From an uncultured Lachnospiraceae bacterium (GTDB taxonomy: Bacteria; Bacillota; Clostridia; Lachnospirales; Lachnospiraceae), in NCBI GenBank assembly GCA_958444395.1, contig CAUCOL010000006.1:1-14746 (forward strand): a stretch of DNA of 14,746 nt, in the 5' to 3' direction. Under the pieces are notes generated by a model. It was not told the origin of the DNA. It did not search any database and saw nothing but the letters and a program-made list of their open reading frames with translations. Below are positions 10,776 to 14,622 of this stretch, piece by piece (within the stretch, counting starts at the first letter, position 1; each line of letters opens with the position of its first letter). Made by a program: the position numbers and the translations under genes.

Positions 10776-12857
10776 TTATTTGGTCAGAAGAAGCATGATC
10801 TCATTGCTGCGGTTTACAAATTTGGTCATTTCTTCTGCTGCCAGCGGCTTATTCGCAAGCATTGCCAGATCATACAGCTGCTGACAGATCATATCTGTAT
10901 GCTCACCCTCTTTGTTCTCCAGGATATACTGTACCAGTTTATTCTTGGCATTTAAGATCAGCGTCTCCCCGCCGCCAAACATCCCCATGTCCATACCGGC
11001 ACCACCCATGCTGTACATCTTCATCATATCCTGCATACGACGTGCTTCCTCAGACAATGTGATCATGGAGGAGACATTTTCATTCTTCAGATTCTGTACC
11101 TGTACCGTCAGCTGCTCTTTGCCCAGTGCCTTCTTGAAGATCTCTGTCAATTCCTCTGTCTGCTTCTTGATCGTTTCTTCATCTGCATCCTCTTTAAAGG
11201 TCTCAGACAGATCGGAATCAATACGCTGGAACTTCACCTTCAAATCTTCACTCTGCTCTAACTGTGAAATAAACGGCTGATCGATCGTATGCGTCAGGAT
11301 CACGGCATTCAGATTCTGTTCCTTGAACATATTGATATACTGGCTCTGCTGCTGCAGATTTGTGACATAATATACGATCGTCGGCTTTTCTTCCTTCTGA
11401 TCGTCGGATGTCTCTTTGTCTGCATCCGCTGCCTCTACTACCTCCGGCTCACTCTCGTCCGGCTTCTGGCTGGCATCTGCTGCTTCCACATAATCCGGCA
11501 GCGTGATATATTTATCGTTCAGATCCTTAAAGATCAGATAATCTTTCATCTTATCGCGGAACTTCTCATCCTTCAGGCAGCCGTATTTGATAAACGGGCT
11601 GATATCGTCCCAGTATTTCTCATAGTTCTCACGGTCTACCTTAAACATACCGGATAATTTGTCCGCAACCTTCTTTGTGATATAGTCTGAGATCTTCTTC
11701 ACGAATCCATCATTCTGCAGAGCACTTCTGGATACATTCAGAGGAAGATCCGGGCAATCGATCACACCCTTTAATAACATCAGGAATTCCGGAATAACCT
11801 CTTTGATATTATCCGCAATAAATACCTGATTGTTATATAATTTGATCACACCCTCTAAGTTATCATATTCTGTATTTACCTTTGGAAAATACAGGATACC
11901 CTTCAAGTTAAATGGATAATCCATATTCAGGTGGATCCAGAACAGCGGCTCCTTATAGTCCTGGAATACCTTTCTGTAAAACTCTTTGTATTCTTCGTCT
12001 GTGCAGTCATTTGGATGCTTCATCCACAATGGGTGAATATCACTGACAGAAACCGGACGTTTGTTGATCTTGGCTTTTTCTTTGGCTGGAGAGATCTCCA
12101 CAACCTCTTTCTCACCATTCTCATTTTCTTTTTCTTCTGTCTTTGCTTCCTCTGTGAATTTCTCAACAACTACATCATCCTCGCGAATGTCTGCCGCATC
12201 GATCGTCTCATATTCCTGCGGAGCATCTTTCTTGGACAAAAAGATCTCTACCGGCATGAAAGAACAGTATTTCTCCAGGACTTCACGTACACGGTATTCA
12301 TTGGCAAACTCTACGCTGTCCTCTGACAGATATAATGTAATCTTCGTACCGACCTCTGTCTTCTCTCCATCAGACATCTCAAAATTAATACCGCCCTCAG
12401 ACTCCCAGTGTACCGGTGTGGCACCCTCCTGGTAGGACAGTGTATCAATCGTGACACGATCTGCTACCATAAATGCAGAATAAAAACCGAGACCGAAATG
12501 TCCGATGATCTGCTCCTCATTCGTCTTATCTTTATATTTCTCCAGGAAATCGGTTGCACCGGAAAATGCTACATTATTGATATACTCCTTTACCTCAGCC
12601 TCTGTCATGCCAAGACCGGTATCGGTAAATGACAATGTCTTATCTTCCGGACTTACTTCTACCTTTACAGATGCTTTATAATCATCCGGTAATGTATACT
12701 CGCCCATGATGTCCAGTTTCTTTAACTTCGTAATCGCATCACAGCCATTCGATACAAGCTCCCTGATAAAGATATCATGATCGGAATACAACCACTTCTT
12801 GATGATCGGGAACATATTCTCTGATTCAATTGATAAACTTCCTTTTTCCATCTGCAT
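10776..12857 (-). CDS. htpG: Molecular chaperone HtpG (bacterial Hsp90)
   Basis: HtpG is the dimeric cytosolic ATP-driven chaperone that remodels client proteins. The N-terminal GHKL ATPase domain has E33 and N37 in RELVSNGCDA, D79 in DTGLGM and the lid loop GHFGLGFYSAF at 119-129. The middle domain has HPLWMK and NVSRSALQND (arginine at 377), and the C-terminal dimer domain ends in TLILN...LLLTK. At 693 residues it is longer than the roughly 625 of Escherichia coli. There are two charged additions: a linker at about 221-266 between the N and middle domains, and a very acidic stretch at about 457-491. A Met/Gly-rich segment (608-630) precedes the final domain. AGGAG with a nine-base spacer supports the ATG at 12857. 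It is a single-gene unit, with its own promoter and CIRCE operator upstream and a terminator downstream. Confidence 0.97.
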   Translation of the reverse strand: MQMEKGSLSIESENMFPIIKKWLYSDHDIFIRELVSNGCDAITKLKKLDIMGEYTLPDDYKASVKVEVSPEDKTLSFTDTGLGMTEAEVKEYINNVAFSGATDFLEKYKDKTNEEQIIGHFGLGFYSAFMVADRVTIDTLSYQEGATPVHWESEGGINFEMSDGEKTEVGTKITLYLSEDSVEFANEYRVREVLEKYCSFMPVEIFLSKKDAPQEYETIDAADIREDDVVVEKFTEEAKTEEKENENGEKEVVEISPAKEKAKINKRPVSVSDIHPLWMKHPNDCTDEEYKEFYRKVFQDYKEPLFWIHLNMDYPFNLKGILYFPKVNTEYDNLEGVIKLYNNQVFIADNIKEVIPEFLMLLKGVIDCPDLPLNVSRSALQNDGFVKKISDYITKKVADKLSGMFKVDRENYEKYWDDISPFIKYGCLKDEKFRDKMKDYLIFKDLNDKYITLPDYVEAADASQKPDESEPEVVEAADADKETSDDQKEEKPTIVYYVTNLQQQSQYINMFKEQNLNAVILTHTIDQPFISQLEQSEDLKVKFQRIDSDLSETFKEDADEETIKKQTEELTEIFKKALGKEQLTVQVQNLKNENVSSMITLSEEARRMQDMMKMYSMGGAGMDMGMFGGGETLILNAKNKLVQYILENKEGEHTDMICQQLYDLAMLANKPLAAEEMTKFVNRSNEIMLLLTK

Positions 12858-12992: not shown

Positions 12993-13019
12993 TTAGCAGT
13001 CATGTTCAATGATTGCTAG
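12993..13019. promoter_or_regulatory. Degenerate second CIRCE-like site
   Basis: TTAGCAGTC, nine bases, GATTGCTAG. This keeps the exact 9+9+9 geometry of CIRCE with one mismatch in the left half and two in the right. It lies about 10-40 bases after the predicted htpG transcript start, where HrcA sites normally act. Weak binding is plausible but unproven. Confidence 0.5.
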
Positions 13020-13036: not shown

Positions 13037-13065
13037 ATGATAATACGATTAAAAATAAAAGTCAA
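13037..13065 (-). promoter_or_regulatory. htpG promoter
   Basis: On the minus strand: -35 TTGACT (13060-13065), a 17-base spacer and -10 TATCAT (13037-13042). This gives a transcript start near 13030. The -35 lies inside one arm of the CIRCE-centred hairpin. Confidence 0.75.
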
Positions 13066-13112
13066 GCATTTTTTAGCACTCATATAACAGGAGTGCTAAA
13101 AACGCCTGACTT
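13047..13112 (-). terminator. Probable intrinsic terminator of the polysaccharide operon, built on CIRCE
   Basis: Starting 29 bases after the cpsD stop, the minus strand has two arms of 22 and 23 bases (13091-13112 and 13059-13081) around a nine-base loop. They pair as AAGTCA/TGACTT, then a GGCG segment with G-U pairs, then TTTTTAGCACTC/GAGTGCTAAAAA. TTTTATTTTT follows at once. The two arm differences form G-U pairs only in minus-strand RNA; on the plus strand they would be A-C mismatches. That favours a working RNA hairpin on this strand. Confidence 0.7.
13073..13099. promoter_or_regulatory. CIRCE operator (HrcA binding site)
   Basis: TTAGCACTC, nine bases, GAGTGCTAA: an exact match to the CIRCE consensus bound by the heat-shock repressor HrcA. 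It lies seven bases upstream of the htpG -35, so htpG is probably in the HrcA regulon. hrcA itself is not in the window. Confidence 0.92.
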
Positions 13113-13141
13113 ATATTGTTACGATCTATTAATGGACAGTA

Positions 13142-13858
13142 TCAGGTCTCATCGCCGTAAGTGCCATAATATTTACCATAGTACTTACCGTAATATTTGC
13201 CATAATACTTACCGTAATATCCTTTTTTCTCCATCATAACCTTATTTAATACAGCACCCAGGATACGGCAGCCAGCCTTGTCCAGCTGATCCTTTACACT
13301 CTGTGCAAAATGATAACTGATCTCATTGTTGGCAATGACCATGATCGCACCGTCTACTACGGTCGATACGATCGCTGCATCGATAACGGAACCAAGCGGC
13401 GGACAATCGATAAAGATATAATCATACTGATCACGAAGATCTGCAATCATCTTCCTAAACTTCTCTGTACCCAGAAGCTCTGCCGGATTTGGTGCGTACG
13501 GACCGGAAAAGATCATATGTAGATTCTCAACATCTGTCTCCAGCAATACATCCTCCAGTTCATTCTGACCGGACAGATAATGTGTCAGACCTGCTTCAAC
13601 TGCGCCGACCTTATAACGGCCTACCAATACAGACTTACGAAGATCCGCATCGATCATCAGAACCTTTTTGCCTGCCTCAGCCATAGACATTGCCAGGTTA
13701 AAGGATACGTTTGATTTTCCTTCGTTTGGTGTACAGCTTGTAAAAAGGATCACCTTAATATCATTACCGCAAAACTGTACATTCGTACGAAGAGACTTAA
13801 AGGACTCATTCGCACGATAGCTTAACTTTTCAATCTTTCCAAATGTTATCTTCTTCAT
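13142..13858 (-). CDS. cpsD: CpsD/CapB-type bacterial tyrosine kinase of polysaccharide synthesis
   Basis: This is the cytoplasmic BY-kinase that, together with its membrane adaptor, controls polymer length and export of capsule or exopolysaccharide. The 238 residues hold a Walker A-like SCTPNEGKSN at 41-50 (K48), Walker A' MIDADLRKS at 68-76 and Walker B FIDCPP at 149-154. Residue 50 is N, where Ser or Thr is usual. The C-terminal tyrosine cluster, the autophosphorylation site in the family, is five tandem four-residue units (YYGK x4, then YYGT) with 11 tyrosines in all. The ATG at 13858 has AGGAG seven bases upstream and overlaps the cpsC stop as ATGA, so the two are translationally coupled. 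It is the last gene of its operon. MinD-like ATPases share the fold, but the tail and neighbour make the assignment firm. Confidence 0.94.
   Translation of the reverse strand: MKKITFGKIEKLSYRANESFKSLRTNVQFCGNDIKVILFTSCTPNEGKSNVSFNLAMSMAEAGKKVLMIDADLRKSVLVGRYKVGAVEAGLTHYLSGQNELEDVLLETDVENLHMIFSGPYAPNPAELLGTEKFRKMIADLRDQYDYIFIDCPPLGSVIDAAIVSTVVDGAIMVIANNEISYHFAQSVKDQLDKAGCRILGAVLNKVMMEKKGYYGKYYGKYYGKYYGKYYGTYGDET
13160..13219 (-). repeat. Tandem 12-base repeat encoding (YYGK)4-YYGT
   Basis: Five 12-base units, read on the minus strand as variants of TATTACGGTAAG, with differences mostly at third codon positions (TAT/TAC, GGT/GGC, AAG/AAA). The repeat is in frame with cpsD, so gain or loss of a unit would change the number of tyrosines without a frameshift. 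Confidence 0.85.
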
Positions 13859-14622
13859 TTTGCGGCTCCTTTCTTACGTTTCTTCATTTCACGTTTGCGC
13901 TCTTTCTTCTCTCTCTGCTCACGCTCTTCCTCTTTTACACCACTCTCTTCAAATGGCAGGAGTGCCAGAGTATTGAGTCCCAGATACTTCTCGATATCCT
14001 CGGAAGACTTGATCGTATCATCCATCAGGAAACGTACGATGAAGAAAGCAGAAGCAAGTACCACGCCAAGAACGCCTGCGATCACTGCATTCCTTCCGGT
14101 TGTCGGAGATACCTTCTGATCATCTGCATAACCCTCAGAAATAACACCCGGCTCAGCGATATCCATCAGATCTGCGATCCGCTTCTTTGATACAGTCGCA
14201 TATTGATCTACGATCTGCTTTGCCATGTAAGGATCAGGGTCTGTAACCGTGATCTGCAGGATACGTGTATCAGAAGGGTTTTCAATCGTTGTGACCCCCA
14301 GCAGGTCCTCATAAGTCATGTCCAGATCCAGATTCTTGATCACCTGTTCAACGACCGGACGGCTCTGTGCTACTACAATATAATCCTGTGTCAGCTGTGA
14401 GCCGATCTGCAGATCTGCCAGTGAAGATAAGGTTGTATTACTTCCTGTAATACAAAGCTGTGTTGTGGAGCTGTAAATCGGAGTGACCAGAAATTTACAT
14501 ACCAGACCGGTGCCGGCTGCCAGAATAACTCCGACTAATAATATGATCCAGCACTTTGATAATAACAGCTGAAAAATTTCTCTTAAGTCAATTTCGATTT
14601 CTTCATTATTGTTTTGTTCCAT
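13855..14622 (-). CDS. cpsC: CpsC/Wzz-like chain-length and kinase-adaptor membrane protein
   Basis: A 255-residue protein of the polysaccharide co-polymerase type, which sets chain length and activates the CpsD kinase. The N-terminal amphipathic stretch IDLREIFQLLLSKCW leads into TM1 at about 25-46. An external domain follows to about 170, with repeated VVEQVIKNLDL-type helices and ILQITVTDPDP. The Pro-containing VSPTTGRN precedes TM2 at about 179-198. The cytoplasmic tail (about 199-255) ends in a strongly charged, lysine- and arginine-rich stretch (EEEREQREKKERKREMKKRKK), longer and more basic than I expect for this family. The ATG at 14622 has only a distant AAAGG upstream, but no in-frame alternative exists nearby. 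It lies 17 bases after the preceding coding region and overlaps cpsD by four bases. Confidence 0.92.
   Translation of the reverse strand: MEQNNNEEIEIDLREIFQLLLSKCWIILLVGVILAAGTGLVCKFLVTPIYSSTTQLCITGSNTTLSSLADLQIGSQLTQDYIVVAQSRPVVEQVIKNLDLDMTYEDLLGVTTIENPSDTRILQITVTDPDPYMAKQIVDQYATVSKKRIADLMDIAEPGVISEGYADDQKVSPTTGRNAVIAGVLGVVLASAFFIVRFLMDDTIKSSEDIEKYLGLNTLALLPFEESGVKEEEREQREKKERKREMKKRKKGAAK

Follow-up and report, generated by a model that had tools for sequence, protein, structure and literature searches.

How can a repressed heat-shock promoter lie so close to where the preceding gene ends, and can the same bases serve both? The question is raised by the window, the whole 14,746-nt stretch of Lachnospiraceae DNA analysed here. 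On its minus strand, a cpsC/Wzz-like chain length determinant gene (13855..14622) precedes a gene for a cpsD-like polysaccharide tyrosine autokinase (13142..13858). After 29 nt comes a hairpin with an HrcA operator sequence (CIRCE-1); next are a T-tract and the remaining part of the htpG promoter, then another CIRCE (CIRCE-2) and htpG, which encodes the Hsp90 chaperone (10776..12857, minus strand). CIRCE and HrcA are an established heat-shock operator and repressor, and CIRCE is usually regarded as nothing more than a DNA operator whose spacer is free of constraint. We consider it probable that in this compact junction the same bases are HrcA operator, part of the htpG promoter and cps terminator, and that this double use recurs in Lachnospiraceae. 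Among the surrounding genes, the C-terminal end of the cpsD product (13142-13200) carries a tyrosine-rich repeat, GYYGKYYGKYYGKYYGKYYGTYGDET, like those of autokinase tails. The segment 5870-10458 contains an MMPL-type transporter gene and, 3' of this gene and on its strand, one whose long product carries xxxLxxG heptad repeats.

CIRCE-1 (TTAGCACTC-N9-GAGTGCTAA, 13073..13099, minus strand) is perfect, with 0 mismatches, as the preliminary description of this DNA had reported; CIRCE matches with up to 3 mismatches are expected by chance 0.01 times per window. It is the predicted HrcA operator 5' of the htpG -35 element and forms the core of a 22-bp hairpin (13059..13112, minus strand), whose 5' arm (13112-13091) pairs with a 3' arm (13081-13059) containing one bulged A. 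The 22-bp arm noted earlier thus stands as 22 pairs but not as a clean repeat, the arms being 22 and 23 nt long. The stem alone (13112-13059), which is mostly A-T, includes two G-U pairs among the 22 and has a 9-nt loop, is worth -27.9 kcal/mol. Minus-strand RNA from 13045 to 13120 folds at -30.3 kcal/mol (z -8.6), and none of 200 dinucleotide shuffles did as well. When the CIRCE core was held fixed and the two 16-nt flanks were shuffled, at least 13 flank pairs arose in 0.012% of 200,000 shuffles, and 0/2000 folded as well as the native sequence. Directly 3' of the stem lies the T-tract TTATTTTT (13051..13058, minus strand), which would be the U-tract of the proposed terminator and is also promoter spacer. 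A T-run after the arm and a distance of 29 nt from cpsD (stop at 13142) to the stem are both present as described, although the final bases of the stem are already part of the T-run.

The window therefore holds a stable transcript hairpin and a T-tract directly after its stem, as an intrinsic terminator does. A simple terminator scan of the region returned 0 sites because it takes loops of only 3-8 nt (with a G+C-rich stem) and the loop here is 9 nt; TransTermHP permits loops of up to 13, according to the excerpted text of PMC1852404. No second terminator candidate was found between cpsD and CIRCE in a scan for a hairpin plus T-tract, and Rfam gave nothing at gathering score between 12600 and 13400.

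The hairpin also reaches into the htpG promoter (13037..13065, minus strand), which consists of TTGACT (13065-13060), a 17-nt spacer, and TATCAT (13042-13037). A promoter scan alone does no better than chance, with 3 sites against 2.1 expected in the region. The earlier assignment of TTGACT, within the arm, as the htpG -35 element is borne out by the match of the -35 and -10 elements to 10/12 consensus bases and by the spacing to CIRCE, which lies 6-8 nt before the -35 in 213/227 unique loci, window included, and exactly 7 nt before it in 197. CIRCE-2 (12993..13019, minus strand), absent from the preliminary description, is degenerate, with 3 mismatches, and lies 3' of the -10 element, the classical place for an operator. 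Within the window's clade CIRCE-2 often reads TTAGCAGTC...GAYTGCTAA, and some members have matching changes in both arms.

These positions suggest how one sequence could act at two levels. As DNA, CIRCE-1 would be the HrcA operator abutting the htpG -35 element. As RNA, the CIRCE repeat in the cps transcript would form a hairpin with the T-rich promoter spacer just 3' of it, and the transcript would end there; termination would then shield htpG from read-through that bypasses heat-shock repression. CIRCE-1 of the window most likely acts as an operator and also terminates the cps unit, whose transcripts would end within the htpG promoter. Binding of HrcA, actual termination, and the benefit of shielding are what we infer from this arrangement.

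If CIRCE serves as a terminator, a stronger hairpin is expected only at loci with a co-directional upstream gene, and this prediction was tested in upstream regions of htpG. These were 80 loci from named genome contigs together with further genomes of the same genera and family, leaving out loci with less than 150 nt before htpG and those with an identical CIRCE neighborhood. The nearest htpG proteins found are 84-85% identical to that of the window, and no htpG relatives were found in virus contigs. A CIRCE (up to 4 mismatches, within 700 nt upstream) was present in all 238 loci with at least 150 nt upstream, duplicates included. The 227 unique loci plus 20 added gave 247; dropping 14 without a CIRCE before the -35 element left 233, of which 165 have a co-directional upstream gene, 62 a divergent one, and 6 no called gene of at least 100 aa. 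The spacer analysis used the remaining 227 loci, of which 201 are on the tree. Upstream genes are the longest ORFs called by a script; each of the nine upstream proteins sampled matched a Pfam family above cut-off.

In 119/165 co-directional loci the stop is no more than 60 nt from CIRCE, and in 19 of these the stop is inside CIRCE. In nine loci (L106, L119, L025, L039, L049, L061, L076, L155, L156) it is a TAG within the CIRCE 5' arm (T-TAG-CACTC); in ten others the stop codon lies deeper inside. In many Lachnospiraceae a DUF5721 gene is directly upstream of htpG and co-directional, as in L031 and a cluster of 23 rows, some of which are duplicates of one genome.

When folded with 13-nt flanks, the window's is the most stable of the 233 htpG CIRCE hairpins. 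Pairing beyond CIRCE extends for 13 bp in the window; in 212 other htpG loci it ranges from 0 to 9 bp, with a mean of 1.41, equal to the 1.39 of a control in which 5' and 3' flanks were swapped among genomes. Conserved flank pairing was therefore rejected, and the covariation in the flanking arms for which an alignment had been proposed does not appear. The closest relative, L097, has 8 flank pairs with a bulge, and the two other genomes of its genus in the set have no upstream CIRCE. The extended arm is thus a feature of the window's lineage, unlikely by chance at its own locus, without covariation. Nor is there a strand-specific wobble bias of the kind expected from the earlier argument that G-U pairs in the RNA, which would be A-C mismatches on the other strand, point to selection on the hairpin: across 108 co-directional loci with a stop within 60 nt, the spacer has 23 G-U versus 20 A-C cells and the arms 4 and 7.

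The T-run behaves differently from the flanks. At least 5 T in 8 nt are found in 56/62 divergent loci versus 111/119 co-directional loci with a stop within 60 nt. Since it is equally common with a divergent neighbor, the T-run belongs to the promoter, though a terminator could make use of it. A dependence of the T-run on orientation was seen only in a first set containing duplicates (30/52 versus 7/28, p=0.009) and was rejected in the larger, deduplicated set (49/108 versus 20/56, p=0.25; two-sided p=0.38 on the tree). Loss of both flanks and T-run from relatives that keep CIRCE had been named as evidence against a dual role; the flanks are lost, but the T-run is kept.

Because the operator fixes the arms of CIRCE, the 9-nt spacer is the free variable for the test. 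Its positions 1-9, 2-8, and 3-7 can pair inward, and all three pairs together leave a loop of 3. The mean number of consecutive inward pairs is 1.85 where a co-directional stop lies within 60 nt (n=119, permuted 0.96), 1.41 where it is further off (n=46, permuted 0.86), and 0.77 where the upstream gene is divergent (n=62, permuted 0.79-0.80). By stop distance the means are 2.16 (0-10 nt, n=25), 2.03 (10-30 nt, n=37), 1.70 (30-60 nt, n=37), 1.72 (60-120 nt, n=25), and 1.19 (120-900 nt, n=21); where the upstream reading frame enters CIRCE, the mean is 1.32 (n=19). Without tree correction, the contrast between orientations holds for a minimum upstream ORF of 100 to 250 aa. Blautia sp. MSJ-9 (locus L070) combines a co-directional neighbor with a paired spacer, and the locus of Eubacterium ramulus is called divergent.

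Pairing also follows the presence of another terminator, taken as a hairpin plus T-tract of -8 kcal/mol or better between stop and CIRCE. Co-directional loci in which none was found average 1.85 inward pairs (n=144, of which 81 with a stop within 30 nt were assumed rather than scanned to lack one; permuted 0.94, 0/1000 permutations). Those with another terminator average 0.90 (n=21, permuted 0.83), by a rough detector that also fires in 7/53 divergent loci. Within the 84 co-directional loci with a stop more than 30 nt away, this contrast holds at cut-offs from -6 to -12 kcal/mol and fades at -14 kcal/mol (p=0.069). The pattern is not universal: 59/144 co-directional loci without another terminator, the window included, have fewer than 2 inward pairs. 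The window's spacer has none; its stem is closed outward instead, by flank pairs that include the -35 element. Double use would thus recur at Lachnospiraceae htpG CIRCEs with a co-directional upstream gene and no other terminator, many such genomes strengthening the hairpin inward through a self-complementary spacer and the window doing so outward.

An htpG tree of 218 rows, 201 of them labelled, carries 139 co-directional and 62 divergent loci and shows 28 changes of orientation. On this tree, at least 2 inward pairs occur in a fraction of 0.54 of co-directional versus 0.177 of divergent loci, a contrast reached in 0/2000 discrete-trait simulations. Phylogenetic generalized least squares (PGLS) gives p=9e-5 for the effect of orientation on spacer pairing. 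Relative to divergent loci, p=9.5e-6 for co-directional loci without another terminator and p=0.64 for those with one. A stricter sister-pair test agrees in direction but falls short of significance (7.0 for and 1.6 against among 18 pairs, median p 0.125); with 12 pairs it was not significant either. A first tree of 102 labelled rows, later enlarged, had given weaker support (simulation, two-sided p=0.027; PGLS, t=1.95 for spacer pairs and t=-1.1 for core energy). Together, the comparisons support the view that, in Lachnospiraceae, htpG CIRCE hairpins have been shaped as putative terminators at loci that have a co-directional upstream gene and in which no other terminator was found. The proposal that CIRCE terminates the upstream unit thus holds in its general form, through spacer pairing that depends on the class of neighbor, and not in the particulars first offered for it (flanks, G-U pairs, and T-run).

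CIRCEs elsewhere in the genomes provide a control. Among the matches listed from a search of 150 genomes, there are at least 75 exact CIRCEs from 29 genomes. In the 22 listed at htpG, Watson-Crick inward pairs average 1.64 (permuted 0.95, P=0.001), whereas the 53 listed elsewhere have 0.075, fewer than the permuted 0.39 (P=0.0002). Splitting by spacer identity instead of position (51/75 elsewhere, with two coincidental matches misplaced) gives the same outcome. In seven relatives, one CIRCE each is found a few hundred nt 5' of an HrcA match; of these seven, one has 2 inward pairs and six have none. Away from htpG, the extended CIRCE hairpin appears to be avoided, which would fit a position in a leader or over a promoter, since a terminator there would shut off the operon. 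Several non-htpG CIRCEs have TTGAC within the 9-nt spacer (for example CCTCTTGAC and GCTATTGAC), placing a -35 element inside the operator.

The window's clade (30 loci: the window and members of two genera) illustrates turnover of the operator. A CIRCE 3' of the promoter is present in 30/30 loci. CIRCE-1 (up to 4 mismatches) is present in 18/30, decayed in one (L102), and not found in 11 (L098, L099, L104, L107, L109, L111, L112, L114, L116, L117, L127), which have no N9 CIRCE before the -35 element and only the downstream one. In L127, CIRCE arms with an 8-nt spacer persist as a hairpin shortly after the stop; L109 has the hairpin arms TTAGCGC/GCGCTAA just before the -35 element and a separate terminator further upstream. 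These two loci suggest that the hairpin can outlive the operator, and they are possibly operators that have decayed into plain terminators. Six co-directional relatives without CIRCE-1 (L098, L099, L104, L114, L116, L117) show no terminator candidate, and termination is therefore not indispensable.

That last observation is what one would expect if CIRCE-1 were an ordinary CIRCE whose palindrome folds by necessity. The T-tract and flank pairing would then come from the AT richness of the promoter, and transcription of the upstream unit would read through or stop elsewhere. The T-tracts at divergent loci and the restriction of flank pairing to the window's lineage agree with such an account as well. 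However, it leaves unexplained both the dependence of spacer pairing on the upstream gene and on other terminators and the avoidance of such pairing at CIRCEs elsewhere, and we regard it as unlikely. HrcA bound to CIRCE-1 could instead be a roadblock to the upstream polymerase, a protein insulation lost on heating, with the RNA hairpin secondary. CIRCE-1 is suitably placed between the upstream stop and the htpG promoter, and an HrcA gene was found in 11/12 relatives searched (not in G005), but a roadblock needs no spacer pairing, let alone pairing that depends on other terminators; this makes it very improbable as the main function.

The hairpin might also, instead of causing termination, protect the upstream mRNA against exonucleases at its 3' end. 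Protection predicts the same geometry and the same dependence on a co-directional gene, and the comparative data fit it and termination alike. The T-tract in 111/119 close co-directional loci, which intrinsic termination needs, speaks against it, although divergent loci have the T-tract too; we give protection in place of termination only a slight chance. There is roughly an even chance that the full operator-terminator reading is correct, namely that the Lachnospiraceae htpG CIRCE is a palindrome selected at once for HrcA binding and for ending the preceding gene, its spacer shifting between shaped and unshaped as the neighbor changes. In the window's clade, the downstream CIRCE could then take over repression and free CIRCE-1 to be a terminator, and release of HrcA on heating may alter read-through.

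Related systems share parts of this arrangement. Like known CIRCE/HrcA operators, CIRCE-1 is a perfect TTAGCACTC-N9-GAGTGCTAA that adjoins a chaperone promoter. In Mycoplasma gallisepticum, CIRCE lies 5' of chaperone promoters and transcript ends have been mapped, and the excerpted text of PMC4245973 leaves the two unlinked; CIRCE is taken as a DNA operator there, whereas here spacer pairing follows the upstream gene, pointing to an RNA role. Like an intrinsic (Rho-independent) terminator, the window's hairpin follows a stop codon, precedes a T-tract, and has no other candidate before it; unlike one, it is a repressor operator and contains the -35 element of the next gene, and its loop is 9 nt long and its stem mostly A-T. 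That selection has shaped the hairpin where a terminator is called for is supported at the family level, in the spacer, but this support does not extend to the window's own flanks. The nearest concept found in the literature is the co-option of DNA uptake signal sequences as terminators in Neisseria and Pasteurellaceae, in which, according to the excerpt of PMC1852404, an inverted pair of a DNA motif of other function supplies the hairpin. That motif is a genome-wide repeat, whereas here a repressor operator at one promoter is shaped by the neighboring gene. A statement that CIRCE acts as a terminator was not found in the excerpted open-access full-text literature, and the excerpts of PMC3806222 and PMC5335608 do not mention it.

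If the CIRCE spacer is under RNA-level selection set by the neighboring gene, a well-known bacterial operator would do additional work that depends on its context, and any operator palindrome would become a candidate terminator. Such additional work would also account for a repressed stress promoter lying within a few bases of an active gene's end.
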